Source: an uncultured bacterium
GTDB taxonomy: Bacteria > Patescibacteriota > Minisyncoccia > Phycocordibacterales > PALSA-1337
DNA length: 9,550 nucleotides
Direction: 5' to 3'
Assembly (NCBI GenBank): GCA_903868845.1
Contig: CAIPWS010000024.1
Coordinates: 1-9,550, forward strand
The translations under genes were made by a program, and so were the position numbers. Positions 1-8,602 of this stretch are shown one piece after another. The first letter of the stretch is position 1. The number at the start of each line of letters is the position of its first letter. The notes beneath the pieces are model-generated. The model saw only the letters and a list, made by a program, of their open reading frames with translations, searched no databases and had not been told where the DNA came from.

Positions 1-212
1 AAACGCTTCTTTCCTTGCTCAAGCGAAGTCACGATCTCACTCGAAATTAGCTTCTCCAAAATAGGGTATACAGTGGTCCTTTTTATGCCTATTTCATTGG
101 CCAGAGTGGTGGCGTCTGAACCACCAGTTTTGAGTAAACCGATGTAGACATTTATCTCCTGCTCAGACAATCCAATCTCCTTTAATATGGCTGTACTTTG
201 GTTTGATTCCAT
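1..212 (-). CDS. TrmB-like winged-helix regulator R1 (N-terminal part, cut by window edge)
   Basis: Reading leftwards from the ATG at 212-210 gives 70 codons before the window ends, beginning MESNQSTAILKEIGLSEQEI. It is a typical TrmB-family DNA-binding domain: a first helix (ILKEIGLSEQEINVYIGLL), a helix-turn-helix with recognition helix around IKRTTVYPILEKL, then the start of the wing (SSEIVTSLEQGKKR). In this family the C-terminal part, missing here, is an effector or dimerisation domain. The gene diverges from the binding protein at 369, and the inverted repeat at 288-305 lies between them, so it probably regulates that gene and itself. The ATG has no Shine-Dalgarno in front of it (AATTATTAACAAC). 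The recognition helix differs from R2/R3 (KRTTVYP against PRPxVYD). The family assignment is secure; the role in the local circuit is inferred. Confidence 0.85.
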   Translation of the reverse strand, partial: MESNQSTAILKEIGLSEQEINVYIGLLKTGGSDATTLANEIGIKRTTVYPILEKLISSEIVTSLEQGKKR

Positions 213-245
213 GTTGTTAATAATTTACGACAGTAATATGCATAT

Positions 246-273
246 AGTATAAACGAGCCTATAAATAAGTCAA
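246..273 (-). promoter_or_regulatory. Predicted promoter of R1
   Basis: On the minus strand TTGACT (273-268) is followed after 16 nt by TATACT (251-246), a good sigma70-like match. Transcription would start near 239, giving a leader of about 26 nt before the ATG at 212. The -35 lies 14 bp from the proposed operator at 288-305. Confidence 0.55.
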
Positions 274-287
274 TTGTGGACAGTAAA

Positions 288-305
288 TGTCAAAACTACT
301 TGACA
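288..305. promoter_or_regulatory. Proposed TrmB-type operator, cassette 1
   Basis: TGTCAA-AACTAC-TTGACA is a perfect inverted repeat with 6-bp arms and a 6-bp spacer. Its right arm is exactly the -35 hexamer of the S1 promoter, so a bound regulator should block S1. It has the same length and outer bases as the repeats at 2976-2993 and 5064-5081. The palindrome is seen directly; that R1 binds it is inferred. Confidence 0.6.
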
Positions 306-328
306 ATACGTATACAATCGTGTATACT
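300..328 (+). promoter_or_regulatory. Predicted sigma70-like promoter of S1
   Basis: TTGACA (300-305), a 17-nt spacer and TATACT (323-328) form a near-consensus promoter. The start would be near 335, giving a leader of about 34 nt that is AT-rich and has no Shine-Dalgarno sequence. The spacer and -10 also carry two copies of GTATAC, at 310-315 and 322-327. Confidence 0.75.
310..327. repeat. GTATAC-N6-GTATAC repeat over the S1 -10 region
   Basis: The palindrome GTATAC occurs twice with a 6-bp spacer (AATCGT), so the 18-bp unit reads as both a direct and an inverted repeat. It covers most of the spacer and the -10 element of the S1 promoter. It has the same 6-6-6 layout as the proposed operators but a different sequence. 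It could be a second regulator site, or chance AT-rich symmetry. Confidence 0.4.
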
Positions 329-368
329 TGTGTTGTTATTAAATATTAGCAATTAATATTATAAATAT

Positions 369-1493
369 ATGAAGAAAATTATCTGGACAGTGGTAACGAT
401 AGTCATAGTGATAGCGATTATCGTGACAGCGCTTGTTTCGCAAAAGGGTAATACAGCAACTATAAAAATAGCCGGCCTTTATCCACTCACAGGAGGTCTA
501 GCATCATACGGCGAACCTGCACAGAAAGCGGCTTTGATAGCTGTTGAAGATATAAATGCGACTGGAGGCATAAATGGCAAGAAACTTGAACTTGTTTCAG
601 AAGATCATAAGTGTGATCCGAAAACGATGGTCTCACTTTTTGAAAAGACAGTGAACGTAGATGGTATACATATCATGACTTCAGTCGCATGTAGTGGAAC
701 TGTATCTGCGGTCGCGCCAAACTTGGAGAAAAATGATACGGTCTTGCTCGGTACTGTGACATCAGGTTCGAAACTCACAGCAGTATCGCCAAATTTCTAC
801 AGAAACTGGGCGTCAGATGGTCAGGAGGCAAAATTATTGTCCAACCAGGTTATTGCGAAAGGTTACAAGACGGTGGCGGTCATTTACGAAGAGACAGATT
901 ATGCAAAAGGTCTCAAGATAGCTATGGAGAATGATCTCAAAGACTCCGGTGTGAAGATAGTTAGCGAATCATTTGTCTCTGGCGCTACAGATGTCAGAAC
1001 CCAACTTACAAAGTTACAAGCAGTGAAAGCAGATGTCTTGTTTGTGAGTGTGCAGACGGTCCCAAGTGGTGAAACTGTCCTTACACAGATTGAGCAACTC
1101 AAATTCCAGCCAAAAGCGTTGTTCGTGAATGACAATATCCTGAAAGCTGCACCTTTGCTCACCAATCATACAGCCCTGCTCGACGGAGCTATAGGTGGTG
1201 ACTACGTCTTTCACGGATCGGACGGATTGAATGCTCTTCTTGCAAAATACAAAGCAAAATATGGTCAGGATTGTCCTCAAGTCAATATCTGTGCAGCCGA
1301 ATACGATGCTATCGCCATGATTGCACAAGGTATAAAAGAAAATGGTGAAACATCTGCTGGTGTGAAATCATATCTAAGTCACGCGAAGTACCAAGGTATA
1401 AGTGGAACTATAAGTTTCGACTCCAACAATGACAGATCTGACGCAAACTACTCCTTGTTCGTGATAAAAGGAGGTAAAGCAGTGGATATGTAA
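369..1493 (+). CDS. Membrane-anchored branched-chain amino-acid-type substrate-binding protein S1
   Basis: A 374-residue extracytoplasmic solute-binding protein of the type 1 periplasmic-binding fold (LivJ-like, Peripla_BP_6). Residues about 4-23 are a hydrophobic segment (IIWTVVTIVIVIAIIVTAL) with no lipobox cysteine, so it is probably an uncleaved anchor. The first lobe starts IKIAGLYPLTGGLASYGEPA, followed by GGINGKKLELVSEDHKCDPK. C82 and C108 (HKCDP, SVACSG) align with Cys53 and Cys78 of E. coli LivJ, which form a disulfide, and S109 matches the ligand-contacting Ser79. This points to an amino-acid-like ligand and to folding outside the cytoplasm. Two more cysteines (GQDCPQVNIC) could form a second bond. 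The ATG at 369 directly precedes the anchor; no Shine-Dalgarno is visible. It diverges from R1 and converges with the phosphoesterase. No permease or ATPase is nearby, so it may use a distant transporter or act as a sensor. Confidence 0.9.
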   Translation: MKKIIWTVVTIVIVIAIIVTALVSQKGNTATIKIAGLYPLTGGLASYGEPAQKAALIAVEDINATGGINGKKLELVSEDHKCDPKTMVSLFEKTVNVDGIHIMTSVACSGTVSAVAPNLEKNDTVLLGTVTSGSKLTAVSPNFYRNWASDGQEAKLLSNQVIAKGYKTVAVIYEETDYAKGLKIAMENDLKDSGVKIVSESFVSGATDVRTQLTKLQAVKADVLFVSVQTVPSGETVLTQIEQLKFQPKALFVNDNILKAAPLLTNHTALLDGAIGGDYVFHGSDGLNALLAKYKAKYGQDCPQVNICAAEYDAIAMIAQGIKENGETSAGVKSYLSHAKYQGISGTISFDSNNDRSDANYSLFVIKGGKAVDM

Positions 1494-1530
1494 AAACGAA
1501 GGTGATTGCGAGATGAAATATTACACCTTC
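1492..1530 (-). terminator. Possible intrinsic terminator of the R2-phosphoesterase operon
   Basis: On the minus strand GAAGGTG (1530-1524, ending at the stop codon) pairs with CACCTTC (1504-1498) over a 19-nt loop and is followed by G and TTTTT (1496-1492). The 7-bp stem and U-run fit an intrinsic terminator, but the loop is long. On the plus strand there is no U-run, so no terminator is apparent for S1. Confidence 0.45.
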
Positions 1531-2204
1531 TCAAGATTCGCATTCCCAGAATTATCGATAGTCACGTAAGTAGATGGATTGTCACAAAATGAGCCGGAAT
1601 TTATATAGAGCACGCCGTCTTTCGAACCGGTGTATGGCAAGTGTGTGTGAGAACAGATGACGATGTTCGCCCCTCTCTGCAAAGCGTGATGTGTTGCAAG
1701 GCGCTGCTGTCTATGAGAAGAGACTCCAAGTACACGCTTACTCAAACGCTTGATAAACATTGAAGAACTTTGGTTGTCTCTGTTCATGTGCTGTATGACA
1801 TAAAACATGTCACCGAAGGCGCGCGTGATATTTGGTAGATGCGTCACAAAAGGGTCGAACATGTCTCCGTGCAGACATAAAAACTTATTTTGACCGATGG
1901 TAAATGCTAGGTCGTCGACGATATCGATTCCCATATTTCTAGCAAGATGATCTAAGTTGCGACCATGGTTACCTCCGACGAGGATGACTTTACGTGTCTT
2001 GGCTATTTCAGTTATCAGCGAAACAAGTTGCCAATGCTTATCGTCAAACGACTTTGTAACTTCGGTGTCGAAGAGGTCGCCATTTATAACCAGAGTTTTG
2101 AATCGAGCCGTCTTCAGGAGCTCGATGATCTTATCTGTGCGACAAATCTTCGATCCAATATGAATATCGCTGATAAGTAATGTGTGGCAGGACATGATAA
2201 TCAC
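1521..2204 (-). CDS. Calcineurin-like metallophosphoesterase (LpxH-like family)
   Basis: A 227-residue metal-dependent phosphoesterase with all the usual metal-ligand motifs in order: SDIHIG (D13, H15), NGDLFD (D43), GGNHGRN (N79, H80), LHGDMFD (H112) and SHTHLP (H186, H188). Size and motif spacing resemble the UDP-2,3-diacylglucosamine pyrophosphatase (LpxH) and related COG2908 group, but no lipid A pathway gene is visible, so the substrate is unknown. The start is either a GTG at 2204, overlapping the R2 stop as GTGA, or the ATG at 2195 (MSCHTLL), which is closer to the first strand. Either way translation is probably coupled to R2, and no Shine-Dalgarno is seen. There is no signal peptide, so it should be cytoplasmic. 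It is the only gene of the array that is neither regulator nor binding protein. Family confidence is high; function is open. Confidence 0.88.
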   Translation of the reverse strand: MIIMSCHTLLISDIHIGSKICRTDKIIELLKTARFKTLVINGDLFDTEVTKSFDDKHWQLVSLITEIAKTRKVILVGGNHGRNLDHLARNMGIDIVDDLAFTIGQNKFLCLHGDMFDPFVTHLPNITRAFGDMFYVIQHMNRDNQSSSMFIKRLSKRVLGVSSHRQQRLATHHALQRGANIVICSHTHLPYTGSKDGVLYINSGSFCDNPSTYVTIDNSGNANLEKV

Positions 2205-2956
2205 TTAGAGATATTCCATATTACATTAAAATGCATAAGAACCAAGGCCGCGAACTCCTCGCTGTGAACTATAAATCCGAAAGGTTTTTCGCTTGCTGAG
2301 ACGAAGGCGACCTTGTCGGCGTATATCCAATAGCTTATTTCGAAGTGCATAGACTTCGGAGCATATCGAAGTTCGCGTAGGTCCTCCTTTTTATTTGCCA
2401 TGAAAGGATATTTTTGAAAGTTTAGTTTGGAATCGTATCTTCGAAGCGCCTTGAGTGAAGTATTGTTCGCTACGCGCCTCTTGTTATGCCACTCAAGATA
2501 TTCAGGTCCAAGGATAGCCATCATCTTGTGTGTTGGCCACAAAGAATATGTTTCAATATTCTTGTACCACAAGACGTCATTGAATATTTTCTGTATGCCT
2601 TCCTTGCCGGCGAAGAATCTTATCTGTGGTTCAACAGTTTTAGTCTTCTTTTTGAGTGATGGCAATATCTCCTTGAGTAATTTTTTTCCATGTTCTATGG
2701 AGGCAGTCTGTTGGTCGAGAAGCTGAAGAAGGTAGTTAGGGTCGCTTGCACCGAAAATAGTTTTCGTATCTTCAGACTTTGATACAACCATACCGCGATT
2801 TATGAGATCATTGAGTCCGTCATACACGGTGGGGCGGGGCATAGACAGTCTTTGGGAAATCATGCGCGCAGAAGCTGCTCCAGATTCTAGAAGATCTAGA
2901 TAAATACGCTGTGCGCCACCCTCGACTCCTAAAGTTTTTAATACATCTTCGATCAT
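2201..2956 (-). CDS. TrmB-like transcriptional regulator R2
   Basis: A 251-residue cytoplasmic regulator. Residues about 1-65 form the TrmB winged helix: LKTLGVEGGAQRIYLDLL, the HTH ISQRLSMPRPTVYDGLNDLI, then the wing GMVVSKSEDTKTIFGA. A helical linker (about 70-100) leads into a C-terminal domain starting IRFFAGKEGIQKIFND and ending WNISK, the effector-type domain shared with R3 and more distantly R4. It shares the recognition-helix pattern PRPxVYD with R3. The ATG at 2956 has no room for a Shine-Dalgarno because the -10 box TATAAT ends only 6 nt upstream, so the mRNA is probably leaderless. It diverges from S2 with a palindrome between them and overlaps the phosphoesterase by 4 nt. Most likely it represses or activates S2 and regulates its own operon; the effector is unknown. 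Confidence 0.88.
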   Translation of the reverse strand: MIEDVLKTLGVEGGAQRIYLDLLESGAASARMISQRLSMPRPTVYDGLNDLINRGMVVSKSEDTKTIFGASDPNYLLQLLDQQTASIEHGKKLLKEILPSLKKKTKTVEPQIRFFAGKEGIQKIFNDVLWYKNIETYSLWPTHKMMAILGPEYLEWHNKRRVANNTSLKALRRYDSKLNFQKYPFMANKKEDLRELRYAPKSMHFEISYWIYADKVAFVSASEKPFGFIVHSEEFAALVLMHFNVIWNISK

Positions 2957-2962
2957 GAGCCT

Positions 2963-2991
2963 ATTATAGCAGAATTGTCGCTTTTTGACGA
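2963..2991 (-). promoter_or_regulatory. Predicted promoter of R2-phosphoesterase, giving a leaderless mRNA
   Basis: On the minus strand TCGTCA (2991-2986, 4 of 6 consensus bases), a 17-nt spacer and a perfect TATAAT (2968-2963) precede the R2 ATG by only 6 nt. The expected transcription start coincides with the A of the start codon. The operator at 2976-2993 covers the -35 and half of the spacer, which fits autorepression. Confidence 0.6.
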
Positions 2992-2993
2992 CA
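2976..2993. promoter_or_regulatory. Proposed TrmB-type operator, cassette 2
   Basis: TGTCG-CTTTTTGA-CGACA is a perfect 5-bp inverted repeat with an 8-bp spacer, 18 bp in total. Length, spacing and outer bases are the same as in cassette 3 (TGTCG-N8-CGACA). It overlaps the R2 -35 and ends 2 bp before the S2 -35. Binding by R2 is inferred. Confidence 0.6.
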
Positions 2994-2995
2994 GG

Positions 2996-3024
2996 TAGAC
3001 AATCATTGACGCAATCTATATAGT
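2996..3024 (+). promoter_or_regulatory. Predicted sigma70-like promoter of S2
   Basis: TAGACA (2996-3001), a 17-nt spacer and TATAGT (3019-3024) make a good promoter. The start would be near 3031, leaving a leader of about 58 nt with no Shine-Dalgarno before the ATG at 3089. Confidence 0.6.
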
Positions 3025-3031
3025 ATTGTCT
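2997..3031. repeat. Inverted repeat spanning the S2 promoter
   Basis: AGACAAT (2997-3003) and ATTGTCT (3025-3031) are perfect 7-bp inverted arms 21 bp apart, bracketing the S2 -35/-10 interval. The TGTC/GACA core is shared with the proposed operators, so it may be an auxiliary site. It could also be chance. Confidence 0.35.
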
Positions 3032-3088
3032 GTTAGTGTCGATTATGAGTCGTTTATTAGTAAATAGACACTTAACGAAATAAACATT

Positions 3089-4231
3089 ATGTTAAATAAA
3101 AATAAGGTTATTTGGAGCGTGTTAGTTATTATTATCGTTATTGTGGTTGCTGGTATCGTTACGGCAATAAAGAATAAACCTAGCGATACCATCAAGATAG
3201 GTGCCATCTTATCTTTGACTGGTAATGGTTCTGCTTATGGCCAGCCAGCCCAAAGAGGTATGACGCTTGCTATTCACGACATCAACTCAAAAGGCGGTAT
3301 CAATGGCAAAAAGCTTGAAGCAGTATATGAGGATTCTCAGTTTGATCCCAAGATTGCTCTATCTGCTTACCAAAGTCTGAGTGCACGCGGTATCCGTTTC
3401 ACAGTTACAAATGGTTCAGGTGTTTCACTGGCTGTAAGGAAGCCCGTGGTTAATGATCACAACTTTCAGTTTGAAACTGCAGCGGTAACTCCAGTATTTA
3501 GTGATGGTCAGCCAAATACATGCCGTCTTACTCTTACAGCTCCGGTATCTGGTGTGAGCCTGGGAAACTTCGTATCCCAAAATCTCAAAGCCAAGACTTT
3601 TGCGGCACTCACCCTGAACGATGACTATGGCAAAGCTATGACGGATTCTGTTTCACAGACTGTTTCAGGACAAGGTGTCGTTGTGAAAGGTGCTGATTCA
3701 TTTGATAAGAATGCAACTGACTTCAGAACTCAGATTACGAAGCTTGCAGCCTTGAATCCGGATGTTTTACTCGTCGTCCCGGCTGCCGGTCAGGCTCAAG
3801 CTATATTCAAGCAGCTGAAAGAGCTCGGTTGGAAGGGTGCGATAGTTAGTGATAGCTGGACCATTATCAATGATAATTTGAAGGACTTAAGTCTCGTCGA
3901 TGGCGCATATTTCGTCAATTATGATTGGAATGGAAACGTCAGCCAAAATGACAGTGAAAGCGCAAAGACTTTCAAGTCTGAGTACTCAACACGTTTCGGT
4001 GGCAATGCTCCTGTTATCGCCGCCACAACTTATGACTCTGTAGAATTGTTGGCCAAAGCTATAACCGCGGTCGGTACAAATGATCCGGTCGTCGTTGGTC
4101 AGTGGCTTACGAATAATGTGAAGGATTATCACGGTGTCACGGGTTCTGTAACTCTCAACCAAGATTGTGAAGCTTCAAGAGCAGCTGTTATACAGCAGGT
4201 TAAAGGCGGAAGCTTTGTGGAGGTGAAGTAA
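3089..4231 (+). CDS. Membrane-anchored branched-chain amino-acid-type substrate-binding protein S2
   Basis: A 380-residue type 1 solute-binding protein, visibly a paralogue of S1. An N-terminal hydrophobic anchor (about 7-27, VIWSVLVIIIVIVVAGIVTAI) lacks a lipobox cysteine. The first lobe reads IKIGAILSLTGNGSAYGQPA and GGINGKKLEAVYEDSQFDPK, close to S1. The two disulfide cysteines of S1 are replaced here (SQFDPK, TNGSGVS); only isolated cysteines remain (NTCRL, NQDCEA), so the LivJ-type disulfide is lost. The second lobe has the usual FRTQITKLAALNPDVLLVV and LKELGWKGAIVSDSW segments. The ATG at 3089 directly precedes the anchor; the leader is AT-rich with no Shine-Dalgarno. It diverges from R2 and converges with R3, with only 15 bp between stop codons and no terminator visible there. 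The ligand is unknown and may differ from that of S1. Confidence 0.9.
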   Translation: MLNKNKVIWSVLVIIIVIVVAGIVTAIKNKPSDTIKIGAILSLTGNGSAYGQPAQRGMTLAIHDINSKGGINGKKLEAVYEDSQFDPKIALSAYQSLSARGIRFTVTNGSGVSLAVRKPVVNDHNFQFETAAVTPVFSDGQPNTCRLTLTAPVSGVSLGNFVSQNLKAKTFAALTLNDDYGKAMTDSVSQTVSGQGVVVKGADSFDKNATDFRTQITKLAALNPDVLLVVPAAGQAQAIFKQLKELGWKGAIVSDSWTIINDNLKDLSLVDGAYFVNYDWNGNVSQNDSESAKTFKSEYSTRFGGNAPVIAATTYDSVELLAKAITAVGTNDPVVVGQWLTNNVKDYHGVTGSVTLNQDCEASRAAVIQQVKGGSFVEVK

Positions 4232-4246
4232 ATATACTCCGCACAA

Positions 4247-5059
4247 TTATTCAAGATCCAGACCTTCCAAAAACTTATCGGTATACTGTGGCTCTGGTTT
4301 CACTTGTTTGGATAAATTCCAGATCACTTCAAATTGGGTTTTGGTCAGATTTGCAAAGTCACGACTGTGAATGACGAATCCGAAACATTCTTTCTGAGAA
4401 GATATGAAAGCAACCTTATCTTCATACATCCAGTAGCCCATATCCCAAGCCATACTCTTCGGTGCTAGGCGGATTTCGCGCAGGTGTTTTCCACCAACAC
4501 CTAGAAATGGAAACTTCTTAAAATCAGTTTTGGAATTGTGAGGATATATGCCGCGTATAGAAATGTTTCTTTGGATTCTCTTTCTATTTAATTCCTCAAG
4601 ATAATCAGCGCCGAGGACATGAAGTATCTCTGTCATTGGCCACATGATGGTCGTGTCAATATTTCTGTGCCACATGATGTGGTTCATGACTTGTCGCAAT
4701 CCTTCCTTGCCAGAATAAAACTTTATCTTTGGTTCAATGAAATGTGTTTGCTTAAGAAGGGAAGGTAAAAGCTTCTTGAAGTTGGTTTTTTCTGATTCGA
4801 GAGAATCTATCTTTGATTGTAAGAGGTCAGGAATATTCTTTATATCGTCCACAGAAAATATCTTTTTGTTTTCTTCATCGCGTTCGGTCACCAGACCGTG
4901 AGTGGTCAGGATCTTGATATTGTCATATACAGAAGGTCTGGGAATGTTCAGTCGCTCCGCAATCTGACGCGCAGTTGAAGGGCCTTTGTCCAAGAGGTCA
5001 CTGAAGACCCTTTGGGCATTTGATGAGAGGTTTAGTTCTTGAAAGATTTTATCGAACAT
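4247..5059 (-). CDS. TrmB-like transcriptional regulator R3
   Basis: A regulator of 270 residues when started at the ATG at 5059 (MFDKIFQELNLSSNAQRVFSD). This aligns with the R2 start and lies downstream of the predicted promoter; the longer TTG reading from 5098 would begin inside promoter DNA. Residues about 1-65 are the winged helix, with recognition helix IPRPSVYDNIKIL nearly matching R2. A linker helix (about 75-105) leads to the C-terminal domain IKFYSGKEGLRQVMNHIMWH, with REIRLAPKSMAWDMGYW and EVIWNLSK, clearly homologous to R2 (RELRYAPKSMHFEISYW). R3 carries a tail of about 20 residues after WNLSK that R2 and R4 lack. It diverges from S3, with an 18-bp palindrome across both promoters, so S3 is the likely target. 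No Shine-Dalgarno is visible. Confidence 0.88.
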   Translation of the reverse strand: MFDKIFQELNLSSNAQRVFSDLLDKGPSTARQIAERLNIPRPSVYDNIKILTTHGLVTERDEENKKIFSVDDIKNIPDLLQSKIDSLESEKTNFKKLLPSLLKQTHFIEPKIKFYSGKEGLRQVMNHIMWHRNIDTTIMWPMTEILHVLGADYLEELNRKRIQRNISIRGIYPHNSKTDFKKFPFLGVGGKHLREIRLAPKSMAWDMGYWMYEDKVAFISSQKECFGFVIHSRDFANLTKTQFEVIWNLSKQVKPEPQYTDKFLEGLDLE

Positions 5060-5062
5060 ACT

Positions 5063-5091
5063 TTGTCGATATTCGTCGACAGTTTTACAAT
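5063..5091 (+). promoter_or_regulatory. Predicted sigma70-like promoter of S3
   Basis: TTGTCG (5063-5068), a 17-nt spacer and TACAAT (5086-5091) predict a start near 5098 and a leader of about 24 nt before the ATG at 5122. The -35 lies inside the left arm of the operator at 5064-5081. Confidence 0.65.
5064..5081. promoter_or_regulatory. Proposed TrmB-type operator, cassette 3
   Basis: TGTCGA-TATTCG-TCGACA is a perfect 6-6-6 inverted repeat of 18 bp. It covers the -35 and spacer of the S3 promoter and the predicted start site of R3 (about 5080), so one bound dimer could shut both genes. It is the best-formed of the three 18-bp repeats. Binding by R3 is inferred. Confidence 0.65.
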
Positions 5092-5115
5092 ACCACAACT
5101 AATATGTATACTCAA
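5087..5115 (-). promoter_or_regulatory. Predicted promoter of R3, sharing its -10 with S3
   Basis: On the minus strand TTGAGT (5115-5110), a 17-nt spacer and TATTGT (5092-5087) predict a start near 5080 and a leader of about 20 nt. Five of its six -10 bases are the opposite strand of the S3 -10 (5086-5091), so two polymerases cannot sit there at once. Confidence 0.55.
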
Positions 5116-5121
5116 GTCATT

Positions 5122-6216
5122 ATGAAAAATAGAAATATCATATTTGTTTCGATTGCCATAATATTGGCCATATTTATAGGATTTGCTATATCGCAGGGCC
5201 GCGATACTGATACGAAAACAATTAAAATAGGTGCCATTTTACCTTTGACTGGCACACAAGCTTTCGCTGGAGAAGGTATGAAGAATGCCCTAGAAATGGC
5301 CTTGCACGATCTTCCCAACACGAAATATAAGTATGAACTAGTTATCGCCAACAACGCATTTGATGTGAAGTCATCCATAAGCGCCGCCCAAAAGCTTATC
5401 GATGTAGACAAAGTTTCAGCTATCATTGACGCTTATGCACCTATAGGCAATGCAGTATCACCGATAACAGAAAAAGCTCACATTGTGCATATTGGTGTAG
5501 CTTTTGACCCTAAAATTGCAGAAGGTGATTACAATTTCTTACTGTTTACGACACCGGATACTGCTGCACGTGCTTTTCTTGCAGAAATGCAGAAGCGAGG
5601 TTTGCACACACTCGGTATATTCAGGGTAAATAATCAGGGAATCTTCGCTGTCTATTCATCACTTGAAAGTCTGGCCAATCAATATGGTGTGACTATCGTC
5701 TCCGATCAAATGTTTCAACCAGGTGAGCGAGATTTCAAGAGTTTGATCGCCAAAAGTGCTCCAAGCAAGCCGGATCTATATGCTTTGTTGGCACTGTCGC
5801 CAGAACTTGAGATTTTGACTAGACAACTTCAAGACCAAGGTATTCACGACATATCATCAACTATATATTTCGAGCTAGCCAAGGACAAATCCGTGTTTGA
5901 AGGATTATGGTCTGTAGGCTATGGCGAGATTTCTCCAGACTTTGTTGCTAAATACAAGGCTAAATACAAGGCTAAATACAATCAAGACATTACGTTCGGT
6001 GTTCCAAATGTCTACGATGCATTTAACATACTTGTGCAGTCTGCCGAATCATATAGTGGCCCAGGAAAACCATCGTCAGAGTTTATTGCTAAGCAGATAC
6101 AGCGTGTCGGCGATTTCCAAGGCGTTCTTGGCAAGCTCCACGTAGATTCCGCTGGAATCATTGATACACCTGCATCTATAAAGATTGTGAAAGATGGGGT
6201 GTTGGTAGGAGTGTAA
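5122..6216 (+). CDS. Membrane-anchored substrate-binding protein S3
   Basis: A 364-residue type 1 solute-binding protein. The ATG at 5122 (MKNRNIIFVSIAIILAIFIG) is preferred: like its paralogues it places a few charged residues before the hydrophobic anchor (about 6-23) and lies about 24 nt after the predicted start site. An in-frame ATG at 5104 is only about 6 nt from it. The first lobe starts IKIGAILPLTGTQAFAGEGM. The protein has no cysteine at all, unlike S1, and the GGINGKKLE stretch of S1/S2 is replaced by LPNTKYKYELVIANNAFD, so it is more diverged. Near residue 276 it carries KYKAKYKAKY, caused by a 12-bp tandem duplication. It diverges from R3 and its stop is 6 bp from that of R4. The ligand is unknown and the binding pocket probably differs from S1. 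Confidence 0.88.
   Translation: MKNRNIIFVSIAIILAIFIGFAISQGRDTDTKTIKIGAILPLTGTQAFAGEGMKNALEMALHDLPNTKYKYELVIANNAFDVKSSISAAQKLIDVDKVSAIIDAYAPIGNAVSPITEKAHIVHIGVAFDPKIAEGDYNFLLFTTPDTAARAFLAEMQKRGLHTLGIFRVNNQGIFAVYSSLESLANQYGVTIVSDQMFQPGERDFKSLIAKSAPSKPDLYALLALSPELEILTRQLQDQGIHDISSTIYFELAKDKSVFEGLWSVGYGEISPDFVAKYKAKYKAKYNQDITFGVPNVYDAFNILVQSAESYSGPGKPSSEFIAKQIQRVGDFQGVLGKLHVDSAGIIDTPASIKIVKDGVLVGV
5947..5979 (+). repeat. In-frame 12-bp tandem repeat inside S3
   Basis: The unit GCTAAATACAAG occurs at 5947-5958 and 5959-5970, followed by 9 bases of a third copy, encoding AKYKAKYKAKY. S1 has one copy at the equivalent place (AKYKAKYGQ), so the extra copy looks like a slippage duplication in S3. The copies are identical at the nucleotide level, which suggests it is recent. 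Confidence 0.85.
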
Positions 6217-7019: not shown

Positions 7020-7056
7020 TTTGTCAGTATTATTGTCATCATAAACTACTGACAAA
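7020..7056. promoter_or_regulatory. Proposed operator of cassette 4: 10-bp inverted repeat
   Basis: TTTGTCAGTA (7020-7029) and TACTGACAAA (7047-7056) are perfect 10-bp inverted arms with a 17-bp spacer. A further TTGTCA (7033-7038) and TGTCA (7061-7065) lie in and just after it. The right arm contains the -35 of S4 and overlaps the proposed -35 of R4. The arm centres are 27 bp apart, unlike the 18-bp repeats of cassettes 1-3. Binding by R4 is inferred. Confidence 0.6.
7026..7055 (-). promoter_or_regulatory. Possible promoter of R4
   Basis: On the minus strand TTGTCA (7055-7050), an 18-nt spacer and AATACT (7031-7026, 4 of 6) predict a start near 7019 and a leader of about 30 nt. The two hexamers fall on the two arms of the inverted repeat. 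The -10 is weak, so this is tentative. Confidence 0.35.
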
Positions 7057-7077
7057 GATATGTCAACGTGGTATTGT
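7049..7077 (+). promoter_or_regulatory. Predicted sigma70-like promoter of S4
   Basis: CTGACA (7049-7054), a 17-nt spacer and TATTGT (7072-7077) predict a start near 7084. The -10 overlaps an in-frame GTG at 7076, which excludes that codon as the start and supports the ATG at 7121. Confidence 0.6.
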
Positions 7078-7120: not shown

Positions 7121-8215
7121 ATGAATATTACAAAAAATCTTTGGATAATAGGGGTGATTGTATTGATGATTGTAGTAGTTGTAGTCTTGGTTGTCAGAGG
7201 TACTGGCGCTCATAGCACCGAGAAATCTACTAAGACAATAAAGATCGGTGCGATAGTATCTCTTTCTGGAGCCGCTTCGACTAACGGAGAAGATATCAAG
7301 AAAGGAATGGATTTGGCTCAGAGTGATCTAGCCAAGCAAGGCATAAATGTGGAGATAGACTATCAAGACGACGCGACAAATCCGAAGGATAGTGTAAGTG
7401 CTGCTCAAAAGATGTTGGCGACAGATAAACCCGATGTCTTCGTTGGACCGATCTGGAGTTTCCTTATAGATGCTGCAAATCCGATAGAGAGCCAAGCAAA
7501 GATAGTTACTTATTCACCTTGCTCAACATCTGAATATATAAATTCGAAGAGTGATTATCTATTCAATGGATACATAAAGAATTCCTTGAAAGAATTACCA
7601 GCCACAGAGTGGTTGAAATCGATGAATGCCAAGAAAGTCGCAATTATTGCAAGTCAGGATAGTTGGGGAGATAGTCATATGGAAGCATATTCACAAGCTG
7701 TGACCGATGCGAATGCTACGCTTGTTTTAACCGAAAGAGTACCATTTGGTAGCGAGATGAATTCATTACCAACAATCTTACTGAAGGCGAAATCAGCTGG
7801 TGCAGACGCAATATTGTGGACCGGTTACGATGACGGAGCAGCAGTGTTCCTAAAAAAGATGCATGAGCTTGGACTAAATATTCCAGTACTTGGCACAGAC
7901 GCATTCAAGACGGTGATTTCCAATGGGAATGTTCATCTTACAGCGCAAGATAAAATCTATGTCTTCGATACTGAGAGGAGTAATGAGTTCGATGCCAAGT
8001 TTAGTAAAGCGTATGGTGTTACTCCTGGTGAATGTGCAAATACAGCATATGATGGAGTTATGATTATCGCTGACGCGGTGCAGAATTCTAAAGATGGTAA
8101 CATCCAAGACTACATGAGAAACAATGTGAACTACTCTGGGTACGCGCACACATATAAATTTGATCAGAATGGAGATATCAAAGGTGGTCAGTGGATTGTG
8201 AGAGAACTTAAATAG
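7121..8215 (+). CDS. Membrane-anchored substrate-binding protein S4
   Basis: A 364-residue type 1 solute-binding protein, started at the ATG at 7121 (MNITKNLWIIGVIVLMIVVV) because this places the anchor (about 7-25) where the paralogues have it. An in-frame GTG at 7076 falls in the promoter -10. The ATG at 7094 has purines touching it (GAAAGG with no spacing) and cannot be fully excluded. The first lobe begins IKIGAIVSLSGAASTNGEDI; then DDATNPKDSVSAAQKML and VFVGPIWSFLIDAANPI. It lacks the S1-type cysteine pair; single cysteines occur in YSPCST and GECANT. The second lobe shows VAIIASQDSWGDSHMEAY, ADAILWTGYDDGA and the hinge segment NTAYDGVMIIADAV. It diverges from R4 and is followed by a hairpin terminator at 8221. 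The ligand is unknown. Confidence 0.88.
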   Translation: MNITKNLWIIGVIVLMIVVVVVLVVRGTGAHSTEKSTKTIKIGAIVSLSGAASTNGEDIKKGMDLAQSDLAKQGINVEIDYQDDATNPKDSVSAAQKMLATDKPDVFVGPIWSFLIDAANPIESQAKIVTYSPCSTSEYINSKSDYLFNGYIKNSLKELPATEWLKSMNAKKVAIIASQDSWGDSHMEAYSQAVTDANATLVLTERVPFGSEMNSLPTILLKAKSAGADAILWTGYDDGAAVFLKKMHELGLNIPVLGTDAFKTVISNGNVHLTAQDKIYVFDTERSNEFDAKFSKAYGVTPGECANTAYDGVMIIADAVQNSKDGNIQDYMRNNVNYSGYAHTYKFDQNGDIKGGQWIVRELK

Positions 8216-8329: not shown

Positions 8330-8602
8330 TTATTTTACTGCGTCCTTGAGGGCCTTTGCGGCGCGGAACTTTGGAACCTTCATAGCTGGGACGTTGATAG
8401 ACTCACCAGTACGAGGGTTACGTGCCTGACGTGCTGCACGCTGCTTGACGGAGAAGATACCGAGACCAGCGATAGATACCTCTTCACCCTTCTTGAGTGA
8501 ATCGATGATGCTGTTGATGACTGTCTCAACGGCTTGTTCGGCCTGGACCTTTGTTCCTCCGAGGATTCCGTGAACTGCTTCTGTGATAGCTGCTTTGTTC
8601 AT
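8330..8602 (-). CDS. HU-family nucleoid DNA-binding protein
   Basis: A 90-residue protein of standard HU/IHF length. It begins MNKAAITEAVHGILGG, has the dimerisation core with VSIAGLGIFSV (42-52), the DNA-embracing arm with RNPRTGE (61-67) including the intercalating proline P63, and the C-terminal helix FRAAKALKDAVK. HU bends and compacts DNA without strong sequence preference and can assist repressor loops. It lies beyond the regulator/binding-protein array, separated from S4 by a terminator, and diverges from the 8809 gene. The start has an AT-rich upstream region with no Shine-Dalgarno, after a leader of about 78 nt. Homodimeric HU is likelier than IHF since only one copy is seen, but the two cannot be told apart with certainty from sequence alone. 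Confidence 0.95.
   Translation of the reverse strand: MNKAAITEAVHGILGGTKVQAEQAVETVINSIIDSLKKGEEVSIAGLGIFSVKQRAARQARNPRTGESINVPAMKVPKFRAAKALKDAVK

Follow-up and report, generated by a model that had tools for sequence, protein, structure and literature searches.

Four neighbouring cassettes, R1-SBP1 to R4-SBP4, occupy the stretch of DNA analysed here (the window, 9,550 nucleotides from an uncultured member of the Patescibacteriota), and in each of them a TrmB-type regulator gene diverges from a binding-protein gene. The divergent gaps of cassettes 1-3 carry 18-bp inverted repeats, O_S1, O2 and O3, and the locus raises the question of whether these are copies of one motif or separate sites serving separate regulators. 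Sequence comparison makes them well-supported candidate operators of the adjacent TrmB-type genes. With a probability of roughly 60%, we read each of them as a private operator that the regulator next to it probably binds to set transcription of that gene pair alone, with R2 and R3 acting as activators and R1 as a repressor.

The cassettes and their inverted repeats

The regulators all exceed the curated cut-off of PF01978 (TrmB-type wHTH; 25.6 bits), and the SBP genes of cassettes 1-3 are likely nutrient-receptor genes:

3..212, minus strand: R1, TrmB-type regulator, N-terminal 70 aa only, where the contig ends; PF01978 53.9 bits
369..1493, plus strand: SBP1, LIV-type binding protein; Peripla_BP_6 178 bits; N-terminal membrane anchor (by eye)
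2201..2956, minus strand: R2, TrmB-type regulator; PF01978 43.2 bits; helix PRPTVYD; predicted fold matching TrmBL2 and TrmB
3089..4231, plus strand: SBP2; Peripla_BP_6 167.2 bits
4247..5059, minus strand: R3, TrmB-type regulator; PF01978 49.9 bits; helix PRPSVYD; ATG at 5059
5122..6216, plus strand: SBP3; Peripla_BP_6 118.8 bits
6223..6987, minus strand: R4, TrmB-type regulator; PF01978 42.7 bits; helix HRQFVYD
7121..8215, plus strand: SBP4; Peripla_BP_6 133.5 bits

The predicted model of R2 (pLDDT 87.2, pTM 0.58) matched TrmBL2 (5bpd; E 2.4e-13, TM 0.47, rmsd 7.7), TrmB (3qph; E 5.3e-10) and the TrmB sugar domain (2f5t; E 8.0e-06). A PDB sequence search with R2 found no relative, and Pfam at E<=1e-3 reported no effector-domain family for R2, R3 or R4.

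The three repeats that the earlier note had described proved exact in sequence and position:

288..305, unstranded: predicted operator O_S1 of cassette 1, TGTCAAAACTACTTGACA; 6-bp arms, the right arm being the predicted SBP1 -35; relatives in L053, L065 and L137
2976..2993, unstranded: predicted operator O2 of cassette 2, TGTCGCTTTTTGACGACA; 5-bp arms
5064..5081, unstranded: predicted operator O3 of cassette 3, TGTCGATATTCGTCGACA; 6-bp arms

They are the only exact matches to TGTCR-N8-YGACA in the window, where seven matches are found with one mismatch against 1.11 expected, a number reached in 0/200 shuffles. To correct for the post-hoc choice of the motif, the four divergent gaps were dinucleotide-shuffled 3000 times. 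In 4/3000 shuffles three gaps had a 4-mer arm and a span in common, with arms of 5 bp, and in 0/3000 this held for an arm with at least two G/C; this particular motif fell in three gaps in 0/3000. Within the source assembly (732,696 b, 66% complete), the strict pattern occurs at three places, all of them O_S1, O2 and O3 (reversed control, 1), so that it is confined to the three gaps rather than equally common inside genes. The looser TGTC-N10-GACA is found at six places (control, 2), and the three beyond the operators lie inside open frames.

Enrichment upstream of TrmB-type genes was assessed on 143 upstream regions, reduced to 138 by removal of five near-duplicates; two of 121 TrmB ORFs were skipped as they had no DNA-binding end, and dyad and information counts used 136 regions after removal of two under 30 bases. 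Over the 138 regions, TGTC-Nk-GACA peaks at k=10 (20) and k=9 (13), the other values of k (0-24) giving 0 to 6; the remainder of the family loci retrieved holds 12 N10 and 5 N9 matches. The N10 form reaches 0.86 per kb upstream of TrmB-type genes vs ~0.02 per kb elsewhere in the family loci, the latter rate being approximate as two stretches share 2 kb and the subtracted length includes some regions outside the set. TGT..ACA dyads of span 17 and of span 18 are each present in 18/136 regions (shuffle means ~2, maximum 5 over 100 shuffles), and a dyad of span 17-19 is found in only 40/136. An unbiased dyad search of 58 divergent gaps returned ATTCG-N8-CGAAT six times and TTTGT-N12-ACAAA eight times with 5-base arms (maximum 5 over 30 shuffles), and nothing above shuffles with 4-base arms.

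Predicted operator types and promoter geometry by clade

R2 and R3 belong to one clade (A), with the helix (P/A)RP(S/T)(V/I)Y(D/G), whose operator TTGTCGnnnTTCGACGACA is present in 13/13 sampled members with at most one mismatch at scored positions, and in 0/125 other upstream regions, the next best having three mismatches. The source assembly matches this consensus with at most two mismatches only at O2 and O3, and at one further place with three. Sister clade B (helix PKS) carries the operator ATTCGCTTTTCGCCGAAT in the same 18-bp frame, found in 8/9 PKS-helix regulators of the set and in 0/129 others; in the ninth, L132, an exact copy lies within a miscalled start. Operator type thus matches the clade of the adjacent regulator, and the sites are kept in diverged orthologous gaps, as the earlier note had proposed to check. 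In clade A, the operator carries 1.46 bits of information per base vs 0.35-0.42 for spacer and flanks, while clade B gaps are fairly alike outside the operator too (0.68-1.06 bits). Since the relatives share common ancestry, conserved gaps are not independent events. Four more distant clade-A relatives were also considered: the A consensus is found within one mismatch in 2/4, and the best predicted promoter lies at +2 in L173, at +3 in L172 and at +5 in L170 (or +2 with its site taken 3 bp further along), with none in L171.

The operator cannot be told from the helix letters alone: L063, a fourteenth PRP-helix regulator (PRPTIYI) placed elsewhere in the tree, has a different, 17-bp TGTCA-type dyad. 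A one-residue helix-to-operator code was likewise set aside: a code based on the aspartate that follows the tyrosine fails in several clades (by eye), and the L063 operator differs. In other genomes, the clade-A operator and promoter frame precedes genes for a flavin reductase, a radical SAM protein, an ABC ATPase, an NMT1-type binding protein and a haem-oxygenase-like protein; as the same frame stands before such different genes, the module looks portable.

The earlier note had placed each site on or against the predicted -35 of a binding-protein gene, which is right, yet the geometry differs between cassette 1 and cassettes 2 and 3:

300..328, plus strand: predicted SBP1 promoter TTGACA-N17-TATACT; -35 at 300-305, the right arm of O_S1
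2996..3024, plus strand: predicted SBP2 promoter TAGACA-N17-TATAGT; -35 at 2996-3001, 2 bp after O2
5084..5112, plus strand: predicted SBP3 promoter TTTACA-N17-TATACT; -35 at 5084-5089, 2 bp after O3
246..273, minus strand: predicted R1 promoter TTGACT-N16-TATACT
2963..2968, minus strand: predicted R2 -10 TATAAT; O2 would cover the R2 -35 and part of the spacer
5087..5115, minus strand: predicted R3 promoter TTGAGT-N17-TATTGT, a weak prediction; O3 would overlap the R3 start site
215..232, unstranded: second 18-bp site O_R1, TGTTAATAATTTACGACA, at the start of R1

In 19/22 clade A/B gaps, the divergent gene has its best predicted promoter beginning exactly 2 bp past the operator (11/13 in clade A, 8/9 in clade B), whereas flank shuffles gave at most 3/22 at +2 and at most 7/22 at any one offset. 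The clade B offsets used nine of ten gaps, L132 being left out for its miscalled start; they include L042, a near-duplicate left out of the 138-region set, and the count without it is 18/21. The exceptions are L041 (+3), L133 (-9, tied with +2) and L076 (+32, with +2 ranked fourth). The -35 is imperfect in 21/22 of these gaps, including L041 at +3; L120 has TTGACA. Regulator promoters are weak predictions, with no consistent -10 offset in clade A and the commonest offset best in 6/9 in clade B.

R1 falls in a different clade with its own operator consensus. All four sampled R1-clade gaps have an operator that contains the -35 itself (best promoter at -6), a -35 with 6/6 consensus matches, and a second site of the same form as O_R1, the two sites being 73, 73, 72 and 72 bp apart. 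O_S1 is retained in the L053, L065 and L137 gaps; a longer perfect dyad at 310-327 (GTATACAATCGTGTATAC, 7-bp arms) is absent from them (by eye) and was discarded as a candidate. The closest SBP1 relatives (46-51% identical) come from five genomes, L136-L140. An R1-type regulator together with R1-type sites occurs in L137 alone; the fetched stretch holds no TrmB in two of the others and a TrmB of another clade in the remaining two.

Because R1 differs from R2 and R3 in clade, consensus, promoter position and second site, the reading of one motif shared by cassettes 1-3 was rejected. What stood of the proposed subfamily binding motif is the comparative support for operators of adjacent TrmB-type genes; a single motif and a single subfamily did not. 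The common feature is a 17/18-bp frame with outer TGT...ACA, found in several TrmB clades. One global regulator reading TGTCR-N8-YGACA in all cassettes would account for three loci of the same length and outer bases, but it is very improbable: the type of operator tracks the clade of the regulator next to it, a separate consensus is found among R1 relatives, and the strict site is nowhere else in the assembly, although at 66% completeness distant sites could be missing. It is harder still to credit that the repeats arise simply from -35 elements and an AT-rich composition; the right arm of O_S1 is indeed a consensus -35 and the gaps are 25-33% GC, but shuffle tests, conservation well beyond the -35 and the position of the clade A/B site upstream of it all speak against this. 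Slighter again is the chance that the repeats work at the RNA level, as leader hairpins. O3 would fall within the transcript in the regulator direction, but in the SBP direction the site is upstream of the predicted promoter, the arms are only 5-6 bp, and sequence is conserved rather than just pairing, left TGTCG being invariant in 13/13 clade A operators.

Cassette 4 was treated separately. Tentatively, R4 has its own 21-bp operator variant:

7034..7054, unstranded: candidate operator O4, TGTC-N13-GACA; right arm overlapping the predicted SBP4 -35
7049..7077, plus strand: predicted SBP4 promoter CTGACA-N17-TATTGT

O4 is a weaker variant that the earlier note had passed over, and its form recurs in one of three R4-like relatives (L052; not L039 or L062). 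As this relative shares it, the 21-bp site was preferred to TTTGTCAGTA / TACTGACAAA (7020-7056).

Proposed mode of regulation

We infer the direction of regulation from position and -35 quality only. A regulator dimer would read the two arms, its binding being switched by a ligand in the putative PLD-like C-terminal domain. For cassettes 2 and 3 we picture this dimer immediately upstream of the imperfect -35, with the operator centre near -46.5 of SBP transcription, helping RNA polymerase at the receptor gene and covering the regulator's own promoter or start; R2 and R3 are predicted to activate the receptor gene and to repress their own. Because its operator includes a perfect -35 and is accompanied by a second site at the regulator start, R1 would repress both genes, from two sites ~7 DNA turns apart and perhaps cooperatively.

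All regulators could instead be simple repressors, the operator blocking polymerase at both divergent promoters until ligand releases it. Pyrococcus TrmB represses at its promoter, according to the available portion of PMC4158304, the O_S1-type site contains the predicted -35 throughout the R1 clade (4/4 gaps), and a protein ending 2 bp from the -35 could still hinder polymerase. We consider this unlikely, though not negligible, since the clade A/B site mostly ends before the -35 (19/22) and the imperfect -35 in 21/22 gaps, vs 6/6 matches in the R1 clade, is expected for an activator-dependent promoter.

The preferred reading also has the receptors probably supplying a single LIV-type ABC importer in common, judging by counts only: the source genome has 18 receptor-domain and two LIV permease matches, a relative's genome 24 and two. 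A broader proposal, which we hold as tentative and somewhat short of an even chance, is that a TrmB lineage in these Paceibacteria radiated into private one-gene switches. Each orphan receptor would have its own regulator and operator key in a common 17/18-bp frame; the key would vary by clade (PRP-helix A with TG...CA ends, PKS-helix B with AT...AT ends), and sliding the frame 8 bp relative to the -35 would turn activation into repression. Receptors would be separately regulated and exchangeable, and therefore one importer would be served by the array. The fixed-place sites in related genomes suggest how a single importer might draw on many receptors, each with its own switch. If true, this would provide regulators matched with their operators in at least three clades, with half-sites open to testing, offer a natural comparison of activator-like and repressor-like placement within one family, and illustrate how a bacterium with a reduced genome could keep control of many receptors that use one importer.

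Comparison with known systems

Our literature search found no study on such operators in Patescibacteria, nor, among the papers searched, one containing both 'Parcubacteria' and 'TrmB'. Comparative genomics across a regulator family is likewise the approach of the IclR, GntR and LacI operator surveys, which in their available parts concern other families, whereas one family with many paralogous cassettes in small genomes is treated here. Pyrococcus and Thermococcus TrmB has a site at a binding-protein transport gene promoter and represses there, like cassette 1, but its operator, TACTN3AGTA, is shorter and unrelated, and whole transporter operons are controlled (available portion of PMC4158304). 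Closer in frame are Pyrococcus TrmBL1 and Thermococcus Tgr, also TrmB-family regulators, with the TGM operator TATCAC-N5-GTGATA (available portions of PMC4706686 and PMC4158304), a 17-bp palindrome whose outer 4-mers are, by our count, 9 apart, as in TGTC-N9-GACA. The TGM sequence itself is not at the three sites, which read TGTC(A/G)...(T/C)GACA, and many genome-wide targets of the TrmBL1/TGM kind were not seen in the 66%-complete assembly. According to the available portion of PMC4706686, Pyrococcus TrmBL1 acts as an activator where its site is upstream and as a repressor where it is downstream, and both effects may occur at a single region. The archaeal pair differs in operator sequence and in its BRE/TATA promoters, as against the bacterial -35/-10 here, and governs a global sugar regulon, whereas the operators described here are apparently private to one gene pair.

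Three inverted repeats and their family-wide setting

Each of the four cassettes in the window places a TrmB-type regulator gene (PF01978; R1-R4) divergent from a gene for a LIV-type binding protein (Peripla_BP_6; SBP1-SBP4). The motif TGTCR-N8-YGACA had been put forward in an earlier note as an operator shared by cassettes 1-3, and its three perfect inverted repeats are letter-exact in the window:

288-305, predicted 18-bp operator O_S1, cassette 1
2976-2993, predicted 18-bp operator O2, cassette 2
5064-5081, predicted 18-bp operator O3, cassette 3

Scanning the 732,696-base, 66%-complete assembly (GCA_903868845.1) recovered these three exact copies and none elsewhere; the looser TGTC-N10-GACA occurred at six places, the three outside these operators sitting within open frames. 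The accompanying claim that chance is an unlikely explanation also held: in post-hoc-corrected shuffles of the four regulator/divergent-gene intergenic regions (gaps), none of 3000 trials produced an arm with at least two G/C common to three gaps at the same span, and four did so when any arm was allowed. The repeats are very probably operators (probability about 0.9), and we infer that each is bound by the neighbouring regulator.

A calcineurin-like phosphoesterase gene (1521-2204) lies between SBP1 and R2, overlapping the end of R2, and what looks by eye like an HU-type DNA-binding protein gene lies downstream of SBP4 (~8330-8601, minus strand).

Within the family, 32 of 53 genomes have relatives of R2, as many as 17 copies occurring in one genome. 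Relatives also appear at 21 loci in named records, among them Candidatus Paceibacterota, Taylorbacteria, Nomurabacteria, Vogelbacteria, Parcubacteria and Falkowbacteria. Of the 121 regulators in the fetched family loci, 119 were kept, and 58 of these stand divergent from a binding protein. Spacing was surveyed in 138 non-redundant TrmB upstream regions (23.3 kb), where TGTC-Nk-GACA peaked at k = 10 (20 occurrences), followed by k = 9 (13) and k = 11 (six), with 0-4 at any other k (0-24); the remainder of the fetched loci held 12 occurrences at k = 10 and five at k = 9. TGT..ACA dyads were commonest at spans 17 and 18, each found in 18 of 136 regions (shuffles averaged ~2 and reached 5 at most). 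A dyad of span 17-19 was present in 40 of the 136 regions and absent from 96, so many TrmB clades have other arms, or none there; read by eye in tree order, other clades show arms at similar span, such as TGTAAC-N5-GTTACA and TGACGA..TCGTCA.

Operators and promoter offsets by regulator clade

Clade A comprises 13 regulators, R2 and R3 included, with the DNA-binding helix (P/A)RP(S/T)(V/I)Y(D/G), the others being 36-51% identical to R2. Its operator consensus, TTGTCGnnnTTCGACGACA, accompanies all 13 with at most one mismatch to TGTCGNNNNNCGNCGACA, T TGTCG (positions -1 to 4) being unchanged in every site; at that threshold it occurred in none of 125 other upstream regions, the next best having three mismatches. 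A fourteenth PRP-helix regulator (L063, PRPTIYI), placed elsewhere in the tree, has a 17-bp TGTCA-type dyad, and the association is therefore with the clade, not with the three helix letters. Comparison of the sequences demonstrates the sites, their positions, their conservation and their link to regulator clade. Clade-A regulators L114, L119, L120, L129 and L133 precede non-LIV genes with the same operator frame.

Promoter positions were scored between -18 and +44, counted from the end of the operator. In clade A the top-scoring -35/-10 pair starts at +2 in 11 of 13 cases, the exceptions being L041 (+3) and L133 (-9, tied with +2), and information reaches 1.46 bits per base in the operator against 0.35-0.42 in the flanks. 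The sister clade B has the helix PKS, and ATTCGCTTTTCGCCGAAT is present in nine of its gaps with no more than two mismatches; in eight of them the top promoter stands at +2 and has a 16-bp spacer (exception L076); a tenth regulator, L132, has an exact site lying within the called gene start. Operator information is 1.87 bits per base here against 0.68-1.06 in flanks that are fairly alike, so that clade A provides the stronger footprint. Together, the two clades place the top promoter at +2 in 19 of 22 gaps (18 of 21 once the near-duplicate L042 is removed); shuffling the flanks gave a maximum of 3 at +2 and of 7 at any offset.

An asymmetric TTCG core, its orientation fixed toward the receptor promoter, lies inside the symmetric operators of both clades; in the window it is found at:

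2984-2987, core of O2, reading TTTG
5072-5075, core of O3

The divergent genes of clade A encode LIV-type binding proteins in the window and, elsewhere, an NMT1-type binding protein, an ABC ATPase, a flavin reductase, a radical SAM protein and a haem-oxygenase-like protein, those of L115 and L116 having no family assigned. With one frame standing before such different genes, the clade-A switch module looks portable. As an out-of-sample check, the clade alignment was run against 383 genomes of the class and returned four more distant regulators (E 1e-69 or better). An A-type site with at most one mismatch occurs in L172 and L173, and L170 and L171 have TGTTG..CAACA dyads four mismatches away; the top promoter lies at +2 (L173), +3 (L172), +5 (L170) and -16 (L171), the L170 offset becoming +2 if its site is shifted onward by 3 bp, with CAACAACA aligned to CGACGACA. 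The strict operator/+2 rule fails among these four; beyond clade A, the frame is partly kept while the letters drift.

In clade C, the R1 relatives L053, L065 and L137 retain the 18-bp TGTC..TTGACA site. In all four sampled gaps, that of the window included, the last six bases of this site form a perfect -35, with a -10 after N17. A second 18-bp site, TGTT..TACGACA, lies near the regulator start in the same four gaps (window copy, 215-232), at distances of 73, 73, 72 and 72 bp; in a nearby clade, the paired sites of two regulators (L033, L064) are separated by 64 bp. The helical repeat of DNA is 10.5 bp per turn, and these spacings approximate whole turns (seven and six), which would suit cooperative binding to the predicted sites.

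For cassette 4, an R4 operator absent from the earlier note is tentatively proposed at 7034-7054, a 21-bp TGTC-N13-GACA with its right arm over the predicted SBP4 -35. This form recurs in one of three relatives examined (L052, not L039 or L062).

Receptors and importer

The assembly holds 18 Peripla_BP_6 matches (E<=1e-15; fragments possibly included) and two LIV-type permease matches, and the related genome G047 holds 24 and two; across the family, LIV-type binding proteins occur in 19 of 53 genomes and a permease over the cut-off in 16. On contig 14 of the assembly (L168), genes for two LIV permeases stand together with genes for binding proteins and for two ABC ATPases, one of which has the branched-chain C-terminal domain. 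On these counts, the simplest reading is that many receptors, each under separate control, feed a single importer. One binding-protein match on contig 14 contains an internal stop.

Evidence against the clade-C picture comes from five genomes whose SBP1 relatives are the closest (46-51%): of these, L137 alone has an R1-type regulator and sites; L138 and L139 have the receptor beside a regulator of another clade, and L136 and L140 have no TrmB within the fetched stretch beside it. Given one R1-type regulator in five, receptors and regulators seem to have been re-paired in evolution.

Predicted mode of action and known TrmB systems

With the transcript start assumed 7 bp after the -10, the operators of clades A and B would lie between about -55 and -38 relative to the start of receptor transcription, directly upstream of a -35 hexamer that is imperfect in 21 of 22 gaps; activation by R2 and R3 is, by a little, the favoured prediction. 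In clade B the best regulator promoter has its -10 at a single offset before the operator in six of nine gaps, and the operator would then cover the regulator's own start; in clade A the regulator -10 is irregular, with no consistent position. The R1 operator holds a 6-of-6 -35, the place expected of a repressor, and R1 probably represses.

As far as the literature was searched, three things appear to be new: the operators of Paceibacteria TrmB paralogs, their clade-specific keys within a shared frame, and the pair of promoter offsets; no paper with both 'Parcubacteria' and 'TrmB' was found in the largely open-access journal literature searched. Earlier work already describes TrmB regulators, palindromic operators and sites with a dual use (PMC4158304, PMC4706686). 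In Pyrococcus TrmBL1, one region is said to serve both uses (PMC4706686), and the double use of one region proposed here would resemble it.
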